64,000 bases of DNA from Spongilla lacustris (lineage: Eukaryota; Porifera; Demospongiae; Spongillida; Spongillidae). Made by a program: the position numbers and the translations under genes. The DNA lies in assembly GCA_949361645.1 (NCBI GenBank), contig OX442415.1:10705071-10769070 (forward strand). Direction: 5' to 3'. The notes beneath the pieces were generated by a model. It saw nothing but the letters and a program-made list of their open reading frames with translations. It had not been told where the DNA came from and did not search any database. This document shows, piece by piece, positions 3,732 through 39,460 of the stretch; position 1 is the stretch's first letter; every line of letters begins with the position of its first letter.

Positions 3732-4838
3732 ATGGCTCTCCTGGGTACAGTAGGGCCTTTTGACCCGGCGGTGGACGATTGGGTGGTCTATTGCGAACGA
3801 CTGGAGCAGTTCTTCCAGGCCAATGGCGTCGCTACCGCCGAGAAACAGCGTGCAGTTCTGCTAAGCGTATGTGGTAGCTCAACTTACCTGTTAATTCGCA
3901 ACCTAGTGTCACCGGAAAAGCCAACAGAGAAGACATATGCCCAACTTGTCAAATTGGTGCGTGAACATGTCTCTCCCCCCCCTCCTGTTTCAGTACTGAG
4001 ATTCCATTTCAACTCGCGGATATAGAAGGACGTACGCAGAGACAGTGGCACAGTTCGTGACGGAGTTGAAGCGCCTGTCCGAATACTGTTCGTTCGGAGA
4101 GACTTTAGACGATATGTTCGAGATTCTAGATTGCAACGTCGGTTGCTGACAGAGAAAGATCTCACCTTCGCCAAGGCATTCGAGCTTGCCAAGTTGGCGG
4201 AGCTAGCGGAAAGGAGTGCTGGGGAAATTCAGCCGCCTGTGGTGGACCCTGAACCTGTACACGTTGTTCAAGCTCCACAGCCGCGAGCTAATCAAGATGC
4301 CTGTTACCGATGTGGTGGCCACCACAAGGCGTCAGAATGTTGGTGCCGAAATGTTGAATGCTACCATTGTGGGAAACAAGGACACCTGGCTAGGGTATGT
4401 CGTGGAAAAAGAGTTGATGACAAGGAGCCCACACAGGGTCGAGGTCGGCAAAGGAGACCTCAGAGAACTCAACAACAACCTGAACGGGATTCTGGCCAGA
4501 AGGATACATACACCTTATTTCCAGTGCAGGACCCATCCAGGAAACCTGCTACTTTACCTGTCTTGCTGAATGACTCTCCCTTAGAGATAGAAGTGGACAC
4601 TGGGGCTGCAGCATCCGTCATTAGCGAGAAAACCTACTGGGCGCTGTGGCCAAAGCAGAGACGCCCACAACTGCAGGACACATCTATCCTTCTGTGGACG
4701 TATACTGGCGAGCAGTTGAAAGTAAAGGGGCAAGTTGCAGTCACAGTGTGTTATGGGGGCACCACTATGTCCCTGAACCTTCTGGTGGTTGCTGGGAGTG
4801 GGCCATCGCTTATGGGGAGAGATTGGCTGTATAAATAA
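3732..4838 (+). pseudogene. Gypsy gag and protease region, frameshifted
   Basis: Gag starts at 3732 (MALLGTVGPFDP) with a retrotransposon gag fold-like N-terminus. The frame stops at 4025; a neighbouring frame carries the homologous stretch up to about 4115, and the original frame resumes by 4131, so two indels bracket about 95 bp. Two zinc knuckles follow; the second (CYHCGKQGHLARVC) is a standard CCHC and the first is irregular. The aspartic protease active site is DTGAAASVIS. A TAA at 4836-4838 ends this frame before RT, which lies in the same frame further on. Confidence 0.85.
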
Positions 4839-7600
4839 AAGCCAAACCTGGGCATTTTTCACACTTCTACACATGTAGGTATGGACAACCACATTCAGAA
4901 GCTATTATCACGTCACTTGGAACTCTTCAAAGATGAACTAGGCTTGGTGAAGGGGGTGACGGTAAAGCTCTACGTGGATCCCTCTGCAACACCATGATTT
5001 TTCAGACCGCGGTCAGTACCACATGCCTTACGTGGAAGAGTTGAGCAAGAGCTGGAGAGGCTTGAGAAAACAGGTATCATTGAGGCTATCAAATTCTCTG
5101 ACTGGGCTACTCCAGTTGTACCACTGGTGAAGGGTGACGGGAGTATCAGGATATGTGGGGATTATAAAGTAACAATCAATCGGGTTGCTAATGTGGAATC
5201 TTATCCCCTGCCACGCATAGACGATTTGCTTGCAGGACTGGCAAAAGGAAAGGTTTTCTCCAAATTAGACCTGGCACATGCTTATCTACAGCTGCAACTG
5301 GATGAGGAATCCAGGAAGCTAGCTACGATTTCCACACACAAAGGTTTGTTTTGTCCTCTGCCCCAGCCATTTTTCAACGCACAATGGAGGGTATTTTGAA
5401 GGGGATACCTTATGTGCATGCGTATATTGATGACATTCTGGTAACGGGAACCTCTGAGTCAGAGCATCTACAGATACTTGAGCAGGTGTTGACAAGGCTG
5501 GAAGAAGTGGGAATGAGGCTGAAGGAGTCAAAGTGCCAATTCTTGCTGCCAAGTGTAGAGTACCTGGGGTACCGTATCTCGGGAAATGGTATTCAACCAA
5601 CGGAGGAGAAACTGAGAGCTATCAGAGATGCGCCGATTCCTCGAGATCTAAGCCAGTTGAAATCATTTTTGGGATTGTTGAACTATTATGGTAAGTTCTT
5701 ACCCCACTTGTCGAGCACTTTGGCACCCTTGTACAAGCTGCTAAGTAAGGGACAGGTATGGTGTTGGGGGAGAGAACAGGAAGAGGCTTTTTGTATAGCC
5801 AAGTCACAACTTACATCTGAAACCCTGCTGGTGCATTTTGACCCTACGTTACAGCTTGCACTTTCATGTGATGCTTCACCTTATGGGCTGTCCCATGTAT
5901 GTGAGGATGGGTCAGATAAACCCATCGCATATGCTTCCCGTTTGTTAGCTCCTGCAGAGAAAAAGTATTCTCAGTTAGAGAAAGAGGGATTAGCAATAGT
6001 CTTTGGGGTCAAGAAATTTCACCAGTACTTGTATGGGCGGAAATTTGTGGTGCATTCTGATCATAAACCTTTGCAGTTTCTCTTTAAGGAAGATAAGCCA
6101 GTACCAACGATGGCATCAGCTAGGATACAGAGGTGGGCTCTGACCTTGAGCGCGTATGACTATCGGATAGTGTTCAGGGCAGGGAAAGAAAACTCAAATG
6201 CTGATGGTCTAAGCAGACTACCACTGAGGGAAAGTCCAAGCAGTGTTCCTGTGCCAGGGGATACTGTCCTGATGATGGAGGCACTTTCAGACATGGGCTC
6301 AGCAGTGTCGGCTGCTACCATAAAGTCATGGACTGATAGGGATCCGGTTCTCTCCCGGGTGAGAAGAATGGCTCTCCATGGATGGCAACCGCAGAAGGGA
6401 GTGGATTTCCAACCGTATGAACGGCGGAAACATGAGCTAAGCGTAGAAGATGGGTGTGTCCTTTGGGGCTCACGGGTGGTGGTACCATCTGCTGGTAGAG
6501 AGGCTGTGGTTAGGTTGCTGCATGAAGGGCATCCTGGAATCTCCAGGATGAAAGCATTGGCAAGGGATGTGGTCTGGTGGCCAGCGTTAGACTCTCAACT
6601 GGAGAGTAAGGTGAAAGAATGTGTAGCCTGTCAAAGTAGTCGGAAATCTCCTCCTAAAGCCCCCTTACATCCTTGGGAGTGGCCAACTAAGCCTTGGGTA
6701 CGGTTGCATGTGGATTTTGCGGGGCCATTTTTAGGTAAAACCCTGATGGTAATTGTGGATGCACACTCAAAATGGTTAGAGGCCTCTATTGTCAGCTCAC
6801 CCTCGGCAGAACAAGCTATACGGGTCTTGCGACATGTCTTTTCAACCCATGGGCTGCCTGAAGTATTGGTCTCAGACAATGGGTCAGCTTTCACAAGTGC
6901 ACAATTCCAGACCTTTGTCAAGCTGAATGGGTTTAGGCATGTGAAAAGTGCCCCCTACCACCCAGCCAGTAATGGGTTGGCTGAGCGTGCAGTGCAAACT
7001 GTAAAGGAAGCACTTAAGAAGACCACAGGGGATTTAGAAACCAGATTAGCTCGATTCCTCTTCCAATACAGGCTGACACCACACTTGACTACTGGGCAGC
7101 CGCCAGCAGAGTTGTTAATGGGGCGTCGTCCAAGATCTCATTTGGATTTCCTTTTTCCTAGTGTGGCACAGCGGGTACAGCAGAGTCAGGAGAGGCAGAA
7201 GACACACCATGACCAACATGTCCAGTCTAGAACCTTTCAAGTTGGAGATGAGGTTTATGTGGTGAATCATAGAGGGTCCCCTAAGTGGCTTCCTGGTGTG
7301 GTGGTCAAGTTGTTAGGACCTTTAAACTTGATAGTGAAGGTTAAGGATGGACAGGAAGCACGCTATCATGTTGATCATGTGTGGGTCAGAGCAGGGGGAG
7401 TTAACAATGATGATAGTGACATAGATGATGATGATGATGACCCATTACCACTAGTGTTAGATACTCCACCAGTGCCAGCACTACCTCCAGGGGAAGTGGA
7501 TCAAGAACAGATGGTCCCAATGGATCCAGTGGAACCACCCCCACCTGCACCAGTGCTCCGACGTTCAACACGTCCTCATCGTCCCCCAGATAGATTCTAA
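4839..7600 (+). pseudogene. Gypsy pol region (RT, RNase H, integrase), broken upstream of an open 749-codon stretch
   Basis: The RT begins in the same frame as protease but carries a TGA at 4995-4997. It is readable at 5127-5345 (KGDGSIRICGDYK, then FSKLDLAHAY). Near 5345 a small deletion removes a few residues before SSAPAIFQ and shifts the frame. The downstream frame is open to 7600 and includes the RT catalytic box YIDDILV, an RNase H domain (SCDASPYG, SDHKPL), an HHCC zinc finger (HEGHPG ... CVACQ) and a DDE integrase (VDAHSKW, SDNGSAF, GLAERAVQTVKE). The C-terminal tail is rich in Asp and Pro. No env is seen. The long intact half suggests recent loss of function. Confidence 0.88.
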
Positions 7601-10388: not shown

Positions 10389-10454
10389 CGATTGCTGGGC
10401 ATCCGTACGGAACATATACATGAATATGTTTTACGCAGCAGTGTTCGATTATAG

Positions 10455-11567
10455 CCAGGCTTGGTAAGTGCCACTTATATTTTGGACGATTTTAAATATC
10501 GTTTCGCAAATTGAATGTAACCAATGGCTTTGGCAGTTTGGGTGAAAAACGTAGCGTGTAAGTCATTTGTTCTATAAATATAATGTATGCACACAATAAA
10601 CAATGTATTTATTCCATCAGTGCGTAAGTATATTTAGACACCTTCTCCACGTTAAAGAGCATTTACCTCTTCTCGTTTTACGCCAATTAACAATATATTA
10701 TTCCTGCAGTGCAAAGTAAGTCCATCTGAAAGCCTTCATTTCAGCGAATTCATGCGTGCATTTATTCATGTCTGTGTTGCAAATAAACGATGCAGAAAGA
10801 CGTATGGAAAACTATTTTAACTACATATCTATATCGAACTAATGTATACCTCTACACTTTTTCAAAATGAAGAAAGTAAGTATATAGCGAGAGCGCTATA
10901 CCATGCAAAGTCGTTAATTTACCTTTTGCGTTGCTGCTGTGCTGCTCTCAAAGTGTGTAAGTATATCAATAACATCCTCCTAAACACAATGATATGTCAC
11001 ATGATGTATCCTTCAAATGATCGATCGCAAAACTATAACTATTACCAGTGTGTAAGTTCCTTAGCGGTGCATTTGATTACACTATGCCACTTACACAATA
11101 CCTGTTTACGACTGGCATTTCTACAGTGGGTAAGTGCATATTGCTCCATCGCTAGCTCATTCTACTTTGTACTGCTTTTCTCTTTACTATACGTGTTGCA
11201 TAATTCAGTTAATAGGAGTAAGTTCCTGTTTTTATTTTATTTATAATTATATTTATTATTATACTTGTTGTTGGTGACTTATATTCTTATGCGACACATC
11301 GATCGTTGCGAATGAAAATCAATAAGATGGGCGTAAGTGCTTTTAGGCCTACATGTACGGTTTACACTGACTAACACATATATGGGTTTTGCTCTGGCGT
11401 GATGGAATGCTCAGCCCGTAAGTGCTGGTATTGCATTTTAGCGTGATCATTACAATGAATTCTATCAATTCTTTAAGTGCGCCGTAAGTTTCGTTTTATC
11501 GGACTGATCCAATGAAAGCATTAAAACCTTTCACCATGCATTGCCACAGCTCGGCTAAACAGAACGG
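10455..11567 (+). pseudogene. 5'-truncated duplicate of the micro-exon gene
   Basis: Fourteen candidate exons match exons 13-26 of the minus-strand gene at 16668-19146: 10455-10463, 10555-10557, 10621-10623, 10710-10715, 10796-10801, 10873-10875, 10954-10956, 11049-11051, 11127-11129, 11209-11217, 11327-11332, 11415-11417, 11478-11483 and 11550-11567 (stop at 11556-11558). The first thirteen are 3, 6 or 9 nt after AG. Twelve of them precede GTAAGT; the fifth has GTATGG. The last is terminal and the donor-like site after it has decayed to GTGTTT. All six cysteine codons of the equivalent part of the other copy are kept, while several other codons differ. Homology stops near 10420, so promoter, signal peptide and the first twelve exons are missing. 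It may be non-functional or use an unseen upstream exon. Confidence 0.6.
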
Positions 11568-11593
11568 GTGTTTAAATGATTAATTTGTGTAAC

Positions 11594-11739
11594 TGTCTAG
11601 CATACTTGCATCTGAACAGCAATCAGCAATGGGTAGGCCAGGCCCATGCAGTGATGTGGCTAACACTATCACCAGCCCTTCTGTACAACCAAAGACATCC
11701 AAACAGATTGCTTCAATTGGACAACATATAGGTGCATGA
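11594..11739 (+). other. Conserved open stretch downstream of the truncated ladder
   Basis: An open frame of about 48 codons shared with the inverted copy (about 16488-16638, minus strand). The two copies differ by two silent and one amino-acid change before an indel near the stop. It could be an alternative last exon or simply 3' untranslated sequence. In the main micro-exon phase it reads a stop after four codons, so its use would need a phase change. Confidence 0.3.
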
Positions 11740-12262
11740 TTGAGCTGTTATAATTTTGAGCTGATTTTATTGTATGGAATTTCAAATAACGCGTACAGAG
11801 CGCGCAGTGCTGAAAACTTCAATTATACACCAATTACACGATAAACTCTATCGTATAGACGTCAGCATACGCGGTAGCATGCGACTCCCTGCAAATTGGG
11901 TCATCATGCATTTACGGTAAATTAAATTCTGAAGTGACGCCTCATTATAGCCACCCAATTTTAAATGACACAGCAGAAGCAGCAAATCAAAACCCCAAGC
12001 ACTGCACTCAATTTCTAGGCATGCACTAGCTCTGTAAGCGGTACAAGTACATCTTGAGTGTGGTTAATTTACTTACAATTATTCATTGACGATGAAATAC
12101 TGTATTTGTATTTGGAGTTTCGTCCAAACGTACGAGGCTACCCCAGTCCATCCATTATTGGATATAAGATGCCCCATCATATTCCAATGGATTTTCATCA
12201 CCTTGACATACCTGAGCAAGAGGAATACATATGGCTTTGGCCCCTCCCACTTTAGGACCGTC

Positions 12263-15849: not shown

Positions 15850-17785
15850 ATGGTCCTAAAGCGGAAGGGGCCAAAGCCATATATGTATTCCTCTTGCTCA
15901 GATATGTCAAGGTGATGTCTCTGTCATGTAGTTGCACTGGCATTTCGCTTTGTTTGTATTGTGCCTGAAACACCATGCATGTTTTCAATTTAGAATACAA
16001 CGGAGAATCCATTGGAATATGATGGGGCATCATATCCAATAATGGATGGACTGGGGTAGCCACGTATACGTTTGAACGAAACTCCAAATACAAATACAGT
16101 ATGATTAGCCATGATTTGCGTGGGAATTTATGTGCGTCTGATGAATTTTCAAGATGTAATTCAAGATGTACCTGTACATACAGAGCTAGTGCATGCCTAA
16201 AAATTGAGTGCAGTGCTTGATTTTTGATGTGCTGTTTCTGCTGTGTCATTTAACATTGGGTGGCTGTATAATGAGGAGGCGTCACTTCAGAATTACCGTA
16301 AATGCACGATGACCCAATTTGCATGGTCGCATACTATACCGCGTATATTGACGTCTGTATACATGTAAGATCGAGTTTATCATGTAATTGGTATAATTGA
16401 AATTTTCAGCACTGCGCGCTCGGTACGCGTTATTTGAAATTCCATACAATAAAATCAGCTCAAAATTATAACAGCTCAATCATGCACTTATATGCGCTTA
16501 GCATGTTGTCCAATTGAAGCAATCTGTTTGGATGTCTTTGGTTGTACAGAAGGACTGGTGATAGTGTTAGCTACATCACTGCATGGGCTTGGCCTACCCA
16601 TTGCTGATTGCTGTTCAGATGCAAGTATGCTAGACAGTTACACAAATTAATCATTTAAACATCTTACCCGTTCTGTTTAGCCGAGCTGTGGCAATGCATG
16701 GTGAAAGGTTTTAATGCTTTCATTGGATCAGTCCGATAAAACGAAACTTACGGCGCACTTAAAGAATTAATAGAATTCATTGTAATGATCACGCTAAAAT
16801 GCAATACCAGCACTTACGGGCTGAGCATTCCATCACGCCAGAGCAAAACCCATATATGTGTTAGTCAGTGTAAACCGTACATGTAGGCCTAAAAGCACTT
16901 ACGCCCAGCTTTTTGATTTTCATTCGCAACGATCGATGTGTCGCATAAGAATATAAGTCACCAACAACAAGTATAATAATAAATATAATTATAAATAAAA
17001 TAAAAACAGGAACTTACTCCTATTAACTGAATAATGCAACACGTACAGCAATGAGTAAAGCAGTACAGAGTAGTATGAGCTAGCGATGGAGCAATATATG
17101 CACTTACCCACTGTAGAAATGCCAGTCGTGCACACGTAGTATAGTTAGGTGGTGCAGAGATATGGAAGTGGCATAGTGGAATCAAATGCACCGCTAAGGA
17201 ACTTACACACTGGTAATAGTTATAGTTTGTGATCAATCATTTGAAGGATGCATCATGTGAAATCTCATGGTGTTTATGAGCAATTGATAATTCTTACACA
17301 CTTTGTGAGCAGCAAAGCAGCAACGCAAAAGTTAAATTAACGACTTTGCATGGTATAGCGCACCCGCGATATACTTACGTTCTTCATTTTGAAAAGTGTA
17401 GAGGTATACGTTAGTTCGATATAGGTATGTAGTTAAAATAGATTTCCTTACGTCTTTCTGCATCGTTTATTTGCAACACATGTATAAATGCACGCATGAA
17501 TTCGCTGAAATGCAGGCTTCTCAGATGGACTTACGCGGCACTGCAGGAAGTGTTAATTGGCGTAGATGGAGAAGAGGTAAATGCTCCTTAACATGGAGAA
17601 GTTGTCTAAATATACTTACGCACTGACGATGGAATAAATACATTTTTTATTATTTGCATACATTATATTTTACTTACGAGCTTCGTTTTTCACCCAAAGC
17701 CATTGGTTATTGGGAGGTTTATGTCACGATATTTTAAATCGTCCAAATATGAGTGGAACTTACGGTGGGCTAAAATCGAACACTG
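15850..17785 (-). repeat. Right arm of the ~1.85-kb inverted duplication
   Basis: Reverse complement of 10420-12262. It has an extra piece of about 130 bp near 15920-16010. It contains the 3' two-thirds of the micro-exon gene and continues into unique sequence carrying that gene's 5' exons. Confidence 0.9.
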
Positions 17786-18739
17786 GTGCGTAAAACATAT
17801 ATGCAATAAAAACGTAACTACTTGGACATACAAGCTATATGTTGCCATTAAAGGTAGTGTACTAAAGTGAAATACTCCGCAGTCACGCATATATATATAT
17901 ATACATACCGGCTGTGTAGCAGTGGAAATACGGGTATGAAGTACAGAAATTCACTATGCAACGCGTGTACTTACACAGTTGAATCCCTTTGTCATTGAAC
18001 ATATCCATGACGCACCCAAATCGGAAATGTATATAGTGTGACGCAGAAGCATTTATATACATTTCATCCATATACTTACAAGCTATAACAAGTTGTTTGA
18101 ATTGAGCACAAACAATGAATAAATTGGTTAAACGAAGGCACACAATGCGATCTGCAAAGGCCCTTACAAACTGCATCACATCAGTGCATGTGCGCCATGC
18201 GAAGGTGGAATTTGCATGAGCAACGTACTTAACCGATATTAATATAACGTACGCACTTCGCGAAGTTACGAACAATGAAGTGCATGGAAGTGAGAAAAAG
18301 AGTGACATGAAGCATAATATTAATTGCGCAAAGTTTACTTACTTTCTATATTTTGTAGAACAGATCGACGAAAATTTGAAAGTGCATATTTACGTATACG
18401 GTTCAATATGCGCTGATCCAAGCACAATGTCGACCCTTACTAGACACTTCGATGCAACGCGCATGTACATGTAAGATGAATTTAAACAGAGAGCACATGC
18501 ATACATAATGCAACATAGTACCTGCTGGCTTTTAACTGTCCCACTGTAAGTGATTTCAACGAAAGTATTTGAAAATATATGGGAGGCGGCAAATTGCTTA
18601 CTCTGAACCAGCTGTACCTATAATAAAATAAAATTGATATATACACGATATAAAGTAGGTAAGTGTATTTCGCAAAAGCACCAGCACTTAAGTACTCCTA
18701 AACAATTCGCTAGACAAGTATATCAGTACGAAATTGCAC

Positions 18740-18805
<66 letters not shown>

Positions 18806-19146
18806 GCGCAGTTAATACCCGCTTCATGCCCTAACTTCCCACGTACGTATCTGGGCTTGGCCATCAGCTGCAATAGTGATGTAGTCTTGGGGCATGCGGA
18901 ATTGTGAGGATCATGCATGGAGCGAACGATGATACTGGAACGTACTGCCTTTTTGTTCCAGCATGTCCTGAAATTTAAGTAGATATAGTTACGTGAAAAT
19001 GCGCATGCATGCATGCATGCATGCCCACGTGCACGCGCGCAGGTTCTCACTGTTTCAGTGGCTTCGTTCCCATCCATATTCATTATCTCTCGGGCCTCGA
19101 GAGAGACTAACATCAGAACGGCAACAACTATCAGTATCTTGATCAT
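16668..19146 (-). CDS. Predicted micro-exon gene for a secreted cysteine-rich peptide (26 exons, about 86 aa)
   Basis: Exon 1 (19051-19146) encodes 32 residues starting MIKILIVVAVLMLVSLEA, a clear signal peptide, and ends at GTGAGA in phase 0. Exons 2-4 (18946-18967, 18602-18617, 18522-18543; 22, 16 and 22 nt) have good splice sites and together return to phase 0 with no stop. Then come 21 exons of 3-12 nt, thirteen of them one codon long, starting at 18441, 18343, 18253, 18168, 18081, 17975, 17909, 17832, 17764, 17678, 17620, 17535, 17452, 17379, 17298, 17207, 17108, 17018, 16903, 16818 and 16752. Exon 26 (16668-16685) has the stop at 16677-16679. Each micro-exon follows AG and precedes GTAAG, GTATGT or GTACGT; all are multiples of three. 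Introns are 55-109 bp except intron 2. Eight cysteines fall in eight micro-exons. The shape suggests a signal peptide, a pro-region and a disulfide-rich mature peptide. Function is unknown. The 12-nt exon and exons 7 and 14 have weak acceptors. Confidence 0.62.
18739..18801. repeat. (TA)n microsatellite
   Basis: About 30 TA units inside predicted intron 2 of the micro-exon gene. It accounts for part of that intron's unusual length (328 bp). Confidence 0.95.
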
Positions 19147-19197
19147 TTCGGTAGGTGTAATTCTTCGGCTGATAGAGCAAGTGTTACAACCACTTGC

Positions 19198-19205
19198 TTT
19201 ATATA
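19198..19205 (-). promoter_or_regulatory. TATA box of the micro-exon gene
   Basis: TATATAAA on the minus strand, 52 bp upstream of the ATG at 19146. This spacing would give a 5' leader of about 25 nt. It supports the short start rather than the longer frame opening at 19227. Confidence 0.6.
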
Positions 19206-19399
19206 TGCATTCGTGTGCTTTAATCAAAGCACGTGAAACTATCTATTGCTTACTACACTATTGTCCCTATACACAAAGGCGCTTCCTGTTACATTATTTG
19301 GTTCACACAAAGTACTACGTCTGCATGGCCTGAGACCATACATTAATTAGTACTTTGTGTGAACAAAATAATGAAAATGTGCTAGCAATGTGGCAAGCT

Positions 19400-19620
19400 A
19401 TCCTTATTCTTTCCTGCTCTTCTTTCGATTTGATCACACGCTTCCACTGTTGATCGCCACTCATATCTTGGAACAATTTGTAAATAAAGAGCGCCATTGT
19501 CAACCTTGTAATTTCCACGCGCTTTCGTCTAAAAGAACGTTTCTGATCTTTTGAACATCCAACTGGCCTGGATACCTTCCTTTTAACAAGAACTGAGTTC
19601 AAAACGCTTTCGTCGTCCAT
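19400..19620 (-). CDS. Unrecognised short ORF, inverted copy of 14511-14741
   Basis: Begins MDDESVLNSVLVKRKV. It continues past DMSG with DQQWKRV, a segment missing in the other copy, then KSKEEQERI. It lies within about 350 bp that mirror 14400-14742. A GT near the missing segment could mark an exon edge, which would explain the difference. No domain recognised. Confidence 0.35.
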
Positions 19621-19764
19621 GGCCAGCAACACTCGCTATTCTAAACGGAAACCTCCACGTACGCGTGCGCACATCAGTTTATACACGCATGAGGCAGAGC
19701 AGTTACGAGGATTCGAAGGCTAAGTGTTTGGTTGAACTTTTATGTGAAAACGTGGAGGGGGGCT

Positions 19765-19949
19765 AGTTGGGCGTAGCCCGACCTTCGCGTATTGGCGGAA
19801 GGTCGGGTATACCTGGATTTGTACCCATGCATCTAATAGCGTATGTGGGCTGTATGTGATAATAGTATAGCCCACATACGCTATCAGATGGGTACAAATC
19901 CAGGTATAGGCTAGATATCCAATATGCGAAGGTCGGGCTACGCCCAACT
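19765..19949. mobile_element. MITE with AGTTGGGCGTAGCCCGACC ends, copy 2
   Basis: Both ends read AGTTGGGCGTAGCCCGACC in inverted orientation. The inside is itself an inverted repeat (TACCTGGATTTGTACCCATG and its complement), so nearly the whole 185 bp can fold on itself. Confidence 0.8.
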
Positions 19950-19959
19950 AGGGGAGGGG

Positions 19960-20095
19960 GGTACAACTGTGCCTAGGAAAAAATGTCCGGCATGAGGGGG
20001 GGGGGGGGGGACACAATAATGCCTAGAGGGGACATTCATTCCTAGGCACCAGTGTCCGGGGGGACAGTCGTGCCTAGGTGCCTCTGACACCGGCT
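19960..20095. repeat. CCTAGG palindrome array, copy 3
   Basis: The same module family as 13960-14205, with GTCC/GGAC boxes and GTGCCTAGG cores plus a G-tract at about 19996-20010. Confidence 0.7.
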
Positions 20096-22105
20096 TTCCT
20101 TTACCGAGTAGTAAATATAGGACTATATATGTAGTAGAGGAAGACTTCATTGAATTAACTTGCTTTTGTATATCTGCCGAGTATTGAATTGTGCATTGTG
20201 CCGAATGTTGCATTGTGCATTGCCACAGCAGCTTTTGTGGCTTTCTCAGTTGTGCATTGTAAACTCATGCATGCAGATGGATTTAAACTGTACATCACAT
20301 CTAGAAGGAGATTGCTGATGTTTACGCGTTGCATCAATAAGACCAACAAGTGCCAGTTTGGCATGAAGCAGTATATAGAATTAGCAAGGTGCATGACGGC
20401 TGACGTATAGTTCAATTAAAGGCGCTTATGGAGATAGTTGAACAGTATGTTGTGTTCACTGTACTGTTCGGAATGGAAGTTATATTATAAATGATTATTG
20501 AATAATAATTCGTTAGCAGTGCAGATGAAACATTTTCATCTTTATGACAAGATTCAGGTTCGTAGGCTATATTAAGGGAAATAAATAAAGGTGGAACTAA
20601 CTAGTATAACAGGGAGGGACACTGTATGAAGTGGGTATAAGCTTCCCATCGAGGGATCTGGTCAGAGCCTCAGCAGACGTCAATCTTAGGAATTTCAGTA
20701 CTGACTCAATTGCAAATCATTTGCGACACTCGTTGAGTCCTATATGGCATTGGCCAGATTTCGTATTTTGTATGAACCAAATAATGAAAATGTGTTACCG
20801 GTCTTCCTTTACCAAGTAGTAAATAGGACTATGAAGTAGAGGAAGACAATGTTGCATTGTGCATTGCCCCAGCATGCAGCCTTTGTTGCATTCTTGTATA
20901 TTGTAAAGCCTGACGTATATATATATTGCTTTCATAGAGTCATTGTTTACTACTCCCGGAGAATTGTTCCAGTTTATAGTAATGCCTTTAAGTCTCAGTG
21001 GAGCCCTCGCTTCGTTGGACCAGCTGATTTGCTCAGTGATGTTTACGCGTTGCATCAATAAGACCAACAAGTGCCAGATTGGCATGAAGCAGTATATAGA
21101 GTTAGCAAGGTGCATGACGGCTGACGTAGTTCAAAGGCGCCTCATTCCATGCCACTGCATGATGCACACATACTGCATGCAATGGCGCTGCAACCACACA
21201 CATGCATGCATGAACCCTCTAACTTTATGCTTAGTCCCCAAATCTTTTGCACAGCTCTGAGTGCGAGTCATCAATGTGAATAATCGGCATAGTTCAATCA
21301 TAGATATTAATATCTATGGTTTAATCGCAGCCTGCCCATCACATATTAATTGTACCGGATTTTCTGAACGTCTGAATATCGTCTTCAGCATCGCCTTACC
21401 TCCCTATACAATCACCACTCCTCTCTAAACGATCTATGCCCTTATCATCATTCATTGGTTTGATGTGCATTGTAGCTGGTTTACTTCCTTATGGAGATAG
21501 TTGAACAGTCAGTCACTGTGTTGTGTTCACTGGAATGGAAGTTATTATTGAATAGAAATTCGGCGTTAGCAATTAATGCAGTTGAAACTTTTTAATCTTT
21601 ATGACAATATTCAGGTTCGTAGGCTATAGGAAGGGAAATCAATAAATGTGGAACTAACTAGTAACAGGGAGGGACACTGTATGAAGTGGGTATAAGCTCC
21701 CTCATCGAGGGGTCTGGTCAGAGCCTCAGTAGCTTTGTAAGTCAATCTTACGATTTTCAGTACTGACTCAATTGCAAATCATTTGCCACACTCGTTGAGT
21801 CCTATACGGCATTGGCCAGATTTCGTACCGGCTTTGTATGAACCAAATAATGAAAATGTGTTACCGGTCTTCCTTTACCAAGTAGTAAATAGGACTATAT
21901 GTAGGAGAGGAAGACAATGTTGCATTGTGCATTGCCCCAGCATGCAGCTTTTGTTGCATTCTTGTATATTGTAAAGCCTGACGTATATATATTGCTTTCA
22001 TTAAGTCATTGTTTACTACTTCCGGAGAATTGTTCCAGTTTATAGTAATGCCATTAAGTCTCAGTGGAGCCCTCGCTTTGATTCGTAGGACCAGCTGATA
22101 AAAGG
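20095..22105 (+). repeat. Tandemly duplicated ~1-kb unit
   Basis: The block about 20430-21080 recurs at about 21490-22095, and its second half has a diverged third copy at 20095-20420. Landmarks include AACTAACTAGTATAACAGGGAGGG, split by a small indel in the second copy, and GTTGCATTGTGCATTGCC. Short open frames here (for example around 20189-20410) are shared among copies but show no domain, so no gene is called. Confidence 0.75.
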
Positions 22106-27692: not shown

Positions 27693-29221
27693 TTACACAC
27701 TGATCTCTATATTAGCTACAAGGGGACTATGGTTGGAGACTTTCATGCAATAGTCTTTGTAGCTTATCTTGCCTGTCAGGTATTTATCCCTATCTTTTAA
27801 ATATTGTTCCTTTTTGCCTTGATCTGATATATCTTGTGTCACATCTCGACCTGGTATCACCATATTTTTAGCTTCCACTGATATTTTGCAAGATGGATTC
27901 CGAAAAATAATGTAATCAATACAATTAACTCCATAAAGATTGTCATATTTTTTCACAGTGTACTTTGAAAGAATCACTTCCAGCCTTTTGCTTGTCGTAA
28001 TGTCTTCATTGAAATCCCCACATATGAGGACAGCCAGATATGGCAGTGCAATACAGAGCTTTTCAATTAAATTGAATAACAAGTCATTCAATCCCTTCGA
28101 ATTTCTCATCTCATGAAAGCTGTGAAATGATATTGCTAGAAGTATAGTATCTTGACCTTTCACTTTAAGGAAACCCATTGCAGCTCTTCCCTTTAATAAT
28201 TCTTTTGCATCCTTTGTCTCCATGTCATCCGCTTCCCTAACAAAGCGTTTCCTACATTCAGCATAACCATTTTCTTGAAGGCATTCAGTGCGAATTGAAG
28301 CTCCTCAATACATCTCTTCACCTGCTGATCGCTATCAGGCAGCCTGCATTGTCTTATAATTTCATCTAAAGTAATCATGTTTTTTGTAAGCTTATTTTTT
28401 CTGCTGTCTTTGCCTGATTCAATCCAATCAATGACTTGCTTTTGATAGTTCATCAACTGAAAGGCCTTTTCAAGACACGAATCAAAATCATTTGTTTCGG
28501 TAAACTTTTCTTTACAGTAAAGAAGTTGGTTATGTGGCCCGCTTATTGCTTCAGTAACCTCAAAGTATCCATGTCGATGATGATTTGTACCGATGGGAAT
28601 GCGCCGTTTGAAATAATCGCTTGGTTCAACGGCATTTTGTGTACGACCCCCGTATTTGGCCGTATTTTCCTGGAGGCAAAGGATGTCCCATTTTAGGGTC
28701 TTTAAGGTCGCGCTCACTACAGCTTCCCTTCTTGCCACCGGACCTGGACCATTGATATTCCTACATACGACATCGATAACAGATGTTGGTGAAGCAGTTG
28801 ATCTATCCGGCTTAGGGGTTGCAAGTATCACTGTTTGCAGAATACTGGAGCTGTTCGGAGTGGGATTCTTATTTCTGCAGTTAATAGATTGACATACTGT
28901 ACATATGCGCTTAGTCTTAGAACAAACACAATCGCTACAGTCTCCAACGGTACATCTGCAACACCTGCGATTATTTGGCGATCCTTTTCCCCAACATACT
29001 ACATCTATATCAGATTTCGGTGAAGCATTTGGTCCATCCGTCTTAGGGGACGCTTGACTGACCGCAAGTATCATTTGCAGAATACTGGCTTTTCGGCTGC
29101 TGTTAATAGAGCGACATGCTGTACATATGCCATTATTCTTAGAACAAACACAGTCGCTACAGTCACCAACGGTACATCTACAACAGCTGCGGCTATTTGG
29201 CGATCCTTGTTTCCACATCAC
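27693..29221 (-). pseudogene. EEP-family (endonuclease/exonuclease/phosphatase) protein with doubled cysteine motif, frameshifted
   Basis: The first frame (29221 down to about 28260) carries two copies of a cysteine motif, CCRCTVGDCSDCVCSK followed by CTxCxSIN, near residues 13-40 and 85-115. These look like metal-binding repeats. From about residue 155 it enters an EEP fold (CRNINGPG, then WDILCLQENTA). Near 28250 the frame changes, and the rest (28223-27693) carries the later EEP motifs: HSFHEMRN, CGDFNED, IDYIIF and NHSPL. EEP enzymes cut phosphodiester bonds in nucleic acids or signalling lipids; which one applies here is unclear. No reverse transcriptase lies beside it, so it is not obviously a LINE. 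A short unrecognised intron near 28250 is the alternative to a frameshift. Confidence 0.6.
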
Positions 29222-39009: not shown

Positions 39010-39460
39010 TCATGTGACAAATAGAAATACGCAAATGAGTGTCGGCTGCTTACTATTGGTAAAATAGAAGTCATAGTAAGTAAGGGGAGGGGTAGGGGTA
39101 GTGGTATGGAGGGGTAGGGGTAAGGGTAGTGGTAGGTAAGGGGAGGGGTAGGGATAGTAGTAGGCATAGTGACAGGAGAGGTCTTCACTGATTATGGCAT
39201 GCTCTGGTGCTGCACCTTCCTCGCTGAATAGCTCAGGTAAGTTATCCTTCAAACGAAGGCACTCTATCAGTTCATCAACACTGCCATTAGAAAGCATTGC
39301 ATCAATAGTTTGCCATGTGTTATATGTCTACAGAATAAAGTTTCCAAAGGAAACTCCTTAGCACAGGATGGTGAGGTGCAGCTGCCCTTATTACCCTCAG
39401 TGGACTGGAGCATGTTGGGAACTGACAGGAAATAGGGTCCCCATGCCACTCACTAAAGCA
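39010..39460 (-). pseudogene. Unrecognised coding fragment, frameshifted, with GGGGTA repeat
   Basis: Two minus-strand frames overlap around 39270-39300. The upstream one contains QSTEGNKGSCTSPSC, the downstream one VDELIECLRLKDNLPELF, and together they look like one disrupted protein. The downstream part runs into a GGGGTAGGGGTAGTGGTA simple repeat (39080-39165). I cannot assign a family. Confidence 0.3.

Follow-up and report, generated by a model that had tools for sequence, protein, structure and literature searches.

Arrays of single-codon exons in the sponge Spongilla lacustris point to a superfamily of genes for secreted peptides

How little sequence can a gene place between two introns, and how many times in succession can it do so? 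In a window of 64,000 nucleotides (nt) from Spongilla lacustris (assembly GCA_949361645.1, contig OX442415.1, here C1, 10,705,071-10,769,070), one gene on the minus strand, from 19146 to 16677, presses both questions to an extreme: of its 26 predicted exons, 21 in a row are only 3 to 12 nt long, and 13 of these are exactly one codon. The observation is real and wider than this single gene, for the genome carries a superfamily built on the same plan. What that superfamily makes is a matter of reading its DNA, and we read it as very probably a family of sponge genes for secreted peptides whose mature part would be spliced from exons of one to four codons and would diversify residue by residue, most likely with about one residue per exon.

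The window gene opens with a predicted signal-peptide exon preceded by a TATA box, followed by exons of 22, 16 and 22 nt that each shift the phase and together make 60 nt without a stop. Then come the 21 consecutive AG-(3n)-GT modules, all in phase 0, with exon lengths in order of 6, 3, 3, 3, 3, 12, 3, 3, 6, 3, 3, 6, 6, 3, 3, 3, 3, 9, 6, 3 and 6 nt and introns of 55-109 nt between them, and finally a last exon that opens CTC GGC TAA. The gene is likely spliced from its 26 exons into a secreted peptide, of which the predicted mature part has 34 residues and eight cysteines. An initial annotation had proposed all of these elements (the phase-0 modules, the thirteen single codons, the leader exon with its TATA box and the three odd exons that add up to whole codons), and the exon map bears each of them out. 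It had also argued that chance would not give such an array, and here numbers can be attached: a scan of 1,870 bases finds 21 GTAAG or GTATGT donors with an AG no more than 12 nt upstream, 18 of the 21 at a multiple of three by a nearest-AG rule, whereas 2,000 first-order Markov shuffles of the same region give means of 1.05 such donors and 0.35 at a multiple of three, with maxima of 5 and 4.

Homologous loci keep the layout. A paralogue about 0.14 Mb away on the same contig (L061; L numbers denote genome stretches), whose leader is 78% identical and of a second type, similar in plan to that of the other arrays and common to these two genes, has a counterpart for each of the 21 micro-exons when they are paired by order, with lengths equal or differing by multiples of three (6/9, 3/6, 12/9, 6/12); its chain runs to 23 micro-exons, the last two probably an over-run. 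Identity is 0.79 between introns at matching places and 0.57 between the others. All eight cysteine exons occupy identical positions (1 in 203,490 under random placement), and of the 13 exons without cysteine 6 code for identical residues; aligned base by base, 3 of the 21 exons (TGTCTA, TGC and TTAATAGGA) do not match start to start. Closer still, window positions 10424-12196 (plus strand) are 86.4% identical to 16003-17800, the two copies lying about 5 kb apart. The 13 micro-exons of this second copy pair in order with micro-exons 9-21 of the array, with one length change (CCCACC to CCAGGCTTG) and with codons replaced inside conserved flanks, CGC by AAA for example. When 15901-20600 was compared against the full window, the leader exon matched nowhere else, and the copy, being truncated at its 5' end, may be a pseudogene. 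The AG/GT pairs are thus conserved in phase in 21 of 21 exons against the paralogue and 13 of 13 in the truncated copy, and these homologues, together with the genome-wide superfamily, support the idea first put forward for this locus: a micro-exon gene for a small, secreted, cysteine-rich peptide.

How far does the plan extend? We searched the genome (248,560,934 bases, 51 contigs). A strict pattern of three modules (GTAAGTA, gap, CAG-NNN-GTAAGT, gap, CAG-NNN-GTAAGT) occurs at 37 places on 12 contigs and its reversed control at none; a looser module pattern gives 1,791 matches against 440 in the control, both swollen by G-rich repeats. A consensus intron of 88 nt has at least 776 matches (in the best 40 of 165 candidate places scored), and among the matches listed there are exact copies on C12 and C17, several of them exactly 3 nt apart. 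From 33 stretches, a selected sample of the genome, we chained 33 array spans chosen by hand after a first scan: 31 in 30 stretches and two in the window, with L055, a near-duplicate of L054, counted among them, with L071, L073 and L084 (arrays or remnants) unchained, and with further runs in L066, L069, L072 and L079 left out. The chained spans total 759 micro-exons and 846 codons, including 120 for cysteine, 117 for glycine and 113 for proline. Arrays reach 47 micro-exons, runs of mostly single-codon exons extend to about 40, and the median intron per array is 75-89 nt (mostly 80-90), the longest being 199 nt under a model limit of 200. The predicted mature peptides are diverse: cysteine-rich in L062, L063, L064 and L085, collagen-like in L072, glycine-rich in L069 and proline-rich in L067.

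When a phase-free chain model was allowed any exon of 1-12 nt between the ends of the chains already built on multiples of three, 752 of 762 micro-exons were divisible by three and 693 of 762 were exactly 3 nt, against 21 of 84 divisible by three when the other strand of those spans was chained. The nearest AG lies at 3 nt for 533 of 631 GTAAGT donors in 29 spans, for 1 of 23 antisense and for 1 of 35 in the window background. With the shuffles, the opposite strand and the reversed pattern all in agreement, we reject a chance origin of the arrays. Stop codons are depleted, 5 in 846 codons where base use at each codon position predicts 43.6 (p=7e-14), and four of the five are close to or at the 3' ends of the L061 and L075 chains, which probably over-run there. 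Because a phase-0 stop lies inside 564 of 726 introns, an unspliced array would mostly not be readable through.

Single-codon glycine and lysine exons close several arrays (L054, L055, L063, L067, L068, L069, L081), as if they were a fixed signal for C-terminal processing; inspection by eye for an amidation signal (GKR) behind these common Gly-Lys ends did not establish one. The arrays of L073 and L075 apparently close, or nearly so, with a single-codon exon consisting of a stop (TGA and TAA).

Upstream of most of the arrays taken lies a shared exon resembling a signal peptide, MLKELSLLVTLLALFADARPQPYK or a variant of it, often with a TATA box 47-103 base pairs (bp) 5' of its ATG. A search with this leader gave 60 matches on 17 contigs, at E values from 1.6e-8 to 0.84 (all 60 candidates scored); 59 of the 60 lack a stop, and 46 fall below 0.01. 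A leader on the same strand stands 0-10 kb upstream of 27 of the 37 strict array matches, and 3 of the other 10 (L060 and the first L080 array) carry a weaker one. Between leader and array lie two exons, of 67-241 nt and of 38, 50 or 53 nt, and exons 1-3 total a multiple of three in 11 of 11 resolved genes (12 were tried and L074 was not resolved; boundaries were picked by eye, with phase considered for exon 3), so that the array is entered in phase 0. A gene model of another sponge, Ephydatia muelleri (P0003), independently joins the same three parts (...NDILE-EMIVSYLRAKNAGSLKA...). In 8 of 12 tabulated genes of the main subfamily the first intron opens GTTTGC or GTTTGT, against GTAAGT in the arrays. 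At L058 (C1:8997500-9004500, minus strand) the propeptide exon is 241 nt of repeated EVEENSD units and one micro-exon within the array is a TGA; the gene is possibly broken, or a unit may be skipped.

Might all of this be nothing grander than a satellite-like tandem repeat, with non-coding units of 91 bp, splice-like ends that are fortuitous, and leaders that are short genes ending before the arrays begin? The young arrays do look the part, since their 88-nt introns reach 100% identity and follow one another at 3-nt gaps, and the Ephydatia muelleri gene models that we read consist of leader and propeptide (some with exon 3) and no array. We nonetheless consider a satellite very improbable. Its 3-nt gaps would have no reason to be so far from random or so poor in stops, a paralogue retains the cysteine exons as the remaining codons change, the first three exons lead into phase 0 in every resolved gene, and in old arrays the introns are only about 0.58 identical and unequal in length, yet the AG-3n-GT frame around each codon persists. 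The window array in particular was considered as satellite DNA and rejected, with introns of about that identity and no more than two short simple repeats detected across the gene (16972-17003 and 18741-18802). The earlier argument that differing introns exclude a satellite stands for the old window array and falls for the young ones, whose introns match a master copy at up to 100%.

That master deserves attention, because it bears on how arrays arise. Median identity between neighbouring introns ranges from 0.57 to 0.99 per array (the window array sits near 0.58), and neighbouring codons share 0.15-0.60 of their bases irrespective of array age, with the homopolymer-rich L053 (0.86) and L069 (0.75) as exceptions. 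The introns form a star around one 88-nt master, and in young arrays they are near-identical across chromosomes while the codons between them differ. In 18 arrays compared, introns are as alike between arrays as within them (L066-L067 0.95 against 0.92 within L067; L063-L066 0.90 against 0.85 within L063), and we reject simple tandem duplication of one exon-intron unit as the sole origin.

One might then suppose that the arrays are introners: copies of a master intron that inserted between all the codons of an ordinary coding sequence, leaving the codons as the remains of the original gene. The likeness of introns between arrays is what master copies would give, codons are unrelated even between identical introns, and several matches to the master's end have no neighbour within 10 kb among the matches listed. 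We think this unlikely all the same. BLAST matches the master 627 times in the loci taken and the window, and 565 of these matches fall in chained spans; 60 of the other 62 were listed, and nearly all of those belong to additional runs at these loci, L073 and L082 alone having isolated partial copies. Among these loci, which were picked for arrays, no gene of a different kind was seen to carry a copy as an ordinary intron, and insertion leaves unexplained why the introns lie between codons. Codon and intron also travel together: blocks of seven units in L075, six in L072 and three in L067 are directly duplicated, and within an array the units with the most similar flanks share a codon at a rate of 0.240, against 0.118 when permuted (sd 0.013), with a weak excess between arrays as well (0.100 against 0.065, sd 0.015). 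Among single-codon exons, proline is CCT in 101 of 108 cases and never CCA, and glycine is GGA in 74 of 101, a skew suggesting that the units may descend from few founders. Near-identical introns with differing codons may reflect copying from one master, intron homogenisation combined with codon selection, or the two together. The last 16 nt of the master have 374 exact matches in the genome; among the 100 listed, C3:4080530, C3:15708283, C5:2534150 and C10:4756944, each without a neighbour within 10 kb, are possible solitary copies.

Arrays, then, gain blocks of codon and intron units, and in most of the paralogues compared the codons outpace the introns, with codons gained, lost and replaced from gene to gene. 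L063 and L064 differ at 4.7% of intron and 11.1% of exon positions, with 30 codons the same, 2 changed synonymously and 7 non-synonymously; the corresponding figures are 4.3% and 13.7% for L059 and L060 (13, 0 and 4), 8.9% and 16.7% for the window gene and its truncated copy (14, 0 and 4), and 18.1% and 32.1% for the aligned codons of the window gene and L061 (11, 2 and 7). Pooling these four pairs gives 31 changed codons in 100 against 459 changed intron triplets in 2,493 (p=0.003), and two or three bases differ in 19 of the 31 changed codons against 109 of the 459 changed triplets (p=2e-5); the window gene enters two of the four pairs, and both p-values are rough for that reason. Flanks diverge by 8.6% beside changed codons and by 5.8% beside unchanged ones. 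Faster change in codons than in introns fits diversifying selection or the replacement of whole codons. (L080a and L080b were aligned, are no true pair and went unused.)

If the genes work as their layout suggests, how would a peptide be made? Exon-definition complexes could hardly fit at both ends of a 3-nt exon simultaneously, so splicing in order across introns is likely. The spliceosome would remove each short intron by intron definition, probably one after another, and the growing 5' exon would lengthen by one codon at every step; the leader would then steer the precursor into the pathway of secretion, with the propeptide removed there. Every unit being frame-neutral, the gain, loss or replacement of one would alter one residue and leave the frame intact, and under selection the mature peptides could change fast, the likeliest pressures being defence or the handling of microbes and algal partners. 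That function, defence or the control of microbes and algae, is our guess.

The same neutrality invites another thought, in line with the initial annotation's suggestion that skipped exons could yield peptide variants: a single gene would give rise to many peptides, each lacking one residue or another, and such combinatorial splicing would be the arrays' main role. The variation that the paralogues show is from gene to gene. With 752 of 762 micro-exons frame-neutral, skipping would alter only the residues encoded; against this, the eight cysteine exons kept between the window gene and L061 suggest one defined product rather than random skipping, and we hold the proposal to be doubtful, if somewhat less so than the introner account. 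We regard it as an even bet that the arrays are a codon-cassette system, in which units of one codon and a master intron vary single residues in frame by recombination, by replacement and perhaps by skipping.

Searched with a profile built from ten leaders, protein collections yielded 38 proteins at E<=0.1; we read 27 of them. The five relatives named by NCBI belong to Ephydatia muelleri, as do those with Em ids in EukProt (two proteins bear both names). P0028, from ENA, agrees by eye with L062, so part of the ENA relatives may be Spongilla itself; the best match of P0001 in the Spongilla lacustris genome is 57% identical. The Ephydatia muelleri models P0005 and P0027 continue past the propeptide or exon 3, by way of one codon, into ...VSITNVMLPNAP and ...VSINDIAFPMARNHAYLFLDVSMNT..., which resemble a translated Spongilla array intron (VSINDVTFPIAP, stop, HAYLFLVTMDT). 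An intron of the array type in both of these proteins suggests that the arrays probably predate the split between Spongilla and Ephydatia. The ids of these proteins belong to what we take to be the AUGUSTUS models of PMC7385117, and such models are no proof of splicing. A contiguous copy of the L063 mature peptide, as by retro-copying, was not found in the genome, an empty result that is weak by itself.

We should now argue against ourselves and set out what weighs against the reading of these arrays as spliced, secreted-peptide genes. Gene models and splicing alike are predicted from DNA, and signal peptides from hydrophobicity only. An array-encoded mature part appears in 0 of the 27 related proteins read of the 38 found; a search of 5.8 billion predicted proteins gave no relative for the mature peptide spliced from L063; PDB gave none for four queries drawn from three genes, and four precursors matched no Pfam family. 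Most loci were found through patterns that require 3-nt exons and are biased towards them (the window array excepted), and the phase-free run was confined between the ends of 3n chains. Of the leader matches, 14 of 60 lie above an E value of 0.01. No terminal exon is clearly discernible in the arrays inspected by eye, L058 has a TGA in mid-array, and 2 of the 21 window micro-exons (TGTCTA and TGC) have weak splice sites, both with counterparts in L061 by order. Two pairs of paralogues, left out of the pool, do not show codons running ahead: L056 and L057 differ at nearly equal rates (introns 15.8%, exons 16.7%; 4 codons the same, 2 synonymous, 2 non-synonymous), and L054 and L055, with 25 intron changes (1.6%), have none in 20 codons (exons 0%).

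Does anything known resemble these genes? Introners comprise many near-identical introns tracing to one master sequence, and the sponge introns are like them in standing near-identical at non-homologous positions with a star-like relation to the master; they are unlike them in that the copies, in the loci taken, were seen in the arrays of one peptide family, between codons, and at least partly duplicated in blocks with those codons. Precursors of the conotoxin type have a conserved leader and propeptide and a fast-changing mature part with conserved cysteines, a plan that the sponge genes share, down to the fixed cysteines; no sequence relation to conotoxins was found, and none was specifically sought. 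We know of no conotoxin-type mature region encoded one residue per exon. The microexons of homothorax and of vertebrates are known as isolated exons between longer ones, unlike the sponge runs, in which up to about 40 successive exons would form the mature peptide. The likeness is the frame-preserving 3-nt exon, as in the single one of Drosophila homothorax (PMC7392893) and in vertebrate microexons (PMC13149111).

Schistosome micro-exon genes (MEGs), to which the window gene had been likened at the outset, are comparable in general plan only. According to PMC10526429 they number 35, with 10-20 exons each, exons of 6-81 bp that are mostly 15 bp (3-81 bp in the abstract) and introns of 0.1-5 kb, and they have secreted products, a conserved signal peptide and tiny, mostly symmetric exons that are hard to annotate automatically. 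The sponge arrays share the layout of a predicted signal-peptide exon followed by a run of 3n micro-exons. The comparison fails on size: by that same account of MEGs, the sponge genes differ in having 693 of 762 micro-exons of exactly 3 nt, arrays of up to 47, introns of about 88 nt that are often near-identical, and a conserved propeptide. As for homology, none of the four sponge precursors matched a Pfam family, and MEG sequences were not compared directly. Among the titles and abstract starts listed by our literature searches (with most subscription journals and bioRxiv outside their scope) none concerned runs of single-codon exons.

Why should one care? If the arrays are spliced as predicted, the usual lower limit on exon size is broken on a grand scale, with up to about 40 consecutive 3-nt exons, and the arrays become a natural test of intron definition, of stepwise (ratchet-like) splicing and of the limits on U1/U2 spacing. 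An animal peptide superfamily would be evolving residue by residue as exons, a case for studying how codons diversify between near-identical introns. Standard annotation would be blind to it, since arrays hide the predicted secreted peptides, as in the array-less Ephydatia muelleri models that we read. And if the codon-cassette idea is true, the architecture would serve the evolution, and possibly the somatic variation, of small peptides.

Table 1. The predicted window gene and its truncated second copy (positions are those of the window)
Feature	Position	Strand	Remark
TATA box TATATAAAG, 59 bp 5' of ATG	19197..19205	-	sequence
Exon 1, 96 nt, phase 0, predicted signal peptide and propeptide start MIKILIVVAVLMLVSLEAREIMNMDGNEATET, donor gtgaga	19051..19146	-	
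Exon 2, 22 nt	18946..18967	-	exons 2-4 total 60 nt without stop
Exon 3, 16 nt	18602..18617	-	
Exon 4, 22 nt, end ...VKSQQ, phase 0 restored	18522..18543	-	
Micro-exon 5 TGTCTA (Cys-Leu), weak acceptor cgaag	18441..18446	-	L061 counterpart SCT by order
Micro-exon 6 AAA (Lys)	18343..18345	-	
Micro-exon 7 TGC (Cys), acceptor gcgaag, donor gtacgt	18253..18255	-	L061 counterpart CG by order
Micro-exon 8 TTT (Phe)	18168..18170	-	
Micro-exon 9 CTT (Leu)	18080..18082	-	
Micro-exon 10 GGATTCAACTGT (Gly-Phe-Asn-Cys)	17975..17986	-	
Micro-exon 11 CCG (Pro)	17909..17911	-	
Micro-exon 12 CTT (Leu)	17832..17834	-	
Micro-exon 13 CCCACC (Pro-Thr)	17764..17769	-	
Micro-exon 14 CTC (Leu)	17678..17680	-	
Micro-exon 15 TGC (Cys)	17620..17622	-	
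Micro-exon 16 TGCCGC (Cys-Arg)	17535..17540	-	
Micro-exon 17 AAAGAC (Lys-Asp)	17452..17457	-	
Micro-exon 18 AAC (Asn)	17379..17381	-	
Micro-exon 19 TGT (Cys)	17298..17300	-	
Micro-exon 20 TGT (Cys)	17207..17209	-	
Micro-exon 21 TGG (Trp)	17108..17110	-	
Micro-exon 22 TTAATAGGA (Leu-Ile-Gly)	17018..17026	-	
Micro-exon 23 CTGGGC (Leu-Gly)	16903..16908	-	
Micro-exon 24 CCC (Pro)	16818..16820	-	
Micro-exon 25 TGCGCC (Cys-Ala)	16752..16757	-	
Exon 26 (last), coding part CTCGGCTAA (Leu-Gly-stop)	16677..16685	-	identical sequence in second copy
Second copy of the gene's 3' part, 5'-truncated	10424..12196	+	13 micro-exons at 10455-11483, same stop exon ~11550-11558

A few other features of the window and of the searches deserve mention. 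The simple repeat at 18741-18802, in the window gene's second intron, between exons 2 and 3, is a perfect (TA)31 microsatellite. An apparent cluster of modules at 39075-39160 (plus strand) shares its position with a G-rich AGGGGT repeat; a micro-exon array is improbable there. Matches to the array pattern in viral contigs (44 stretches, 10 of them listed by the module scan) were set aside, the double matches in L031 and L044 resembling ordinary repeats by eye. At 4131-7600 (plus strand) lie two open reading frames (ORFs) of a gypsy-type retrotransposon, of which the first resembles, by eye, the gag/protease part and the second has Pfam matches to reverse transcriptase, RNase H, an integrase zinc finger and the integrase core. 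An ORF at 28193-29221 (minus strand) contains two near-identical cysteine-rich stretches (CCRCTVGDCSDCVCSK).

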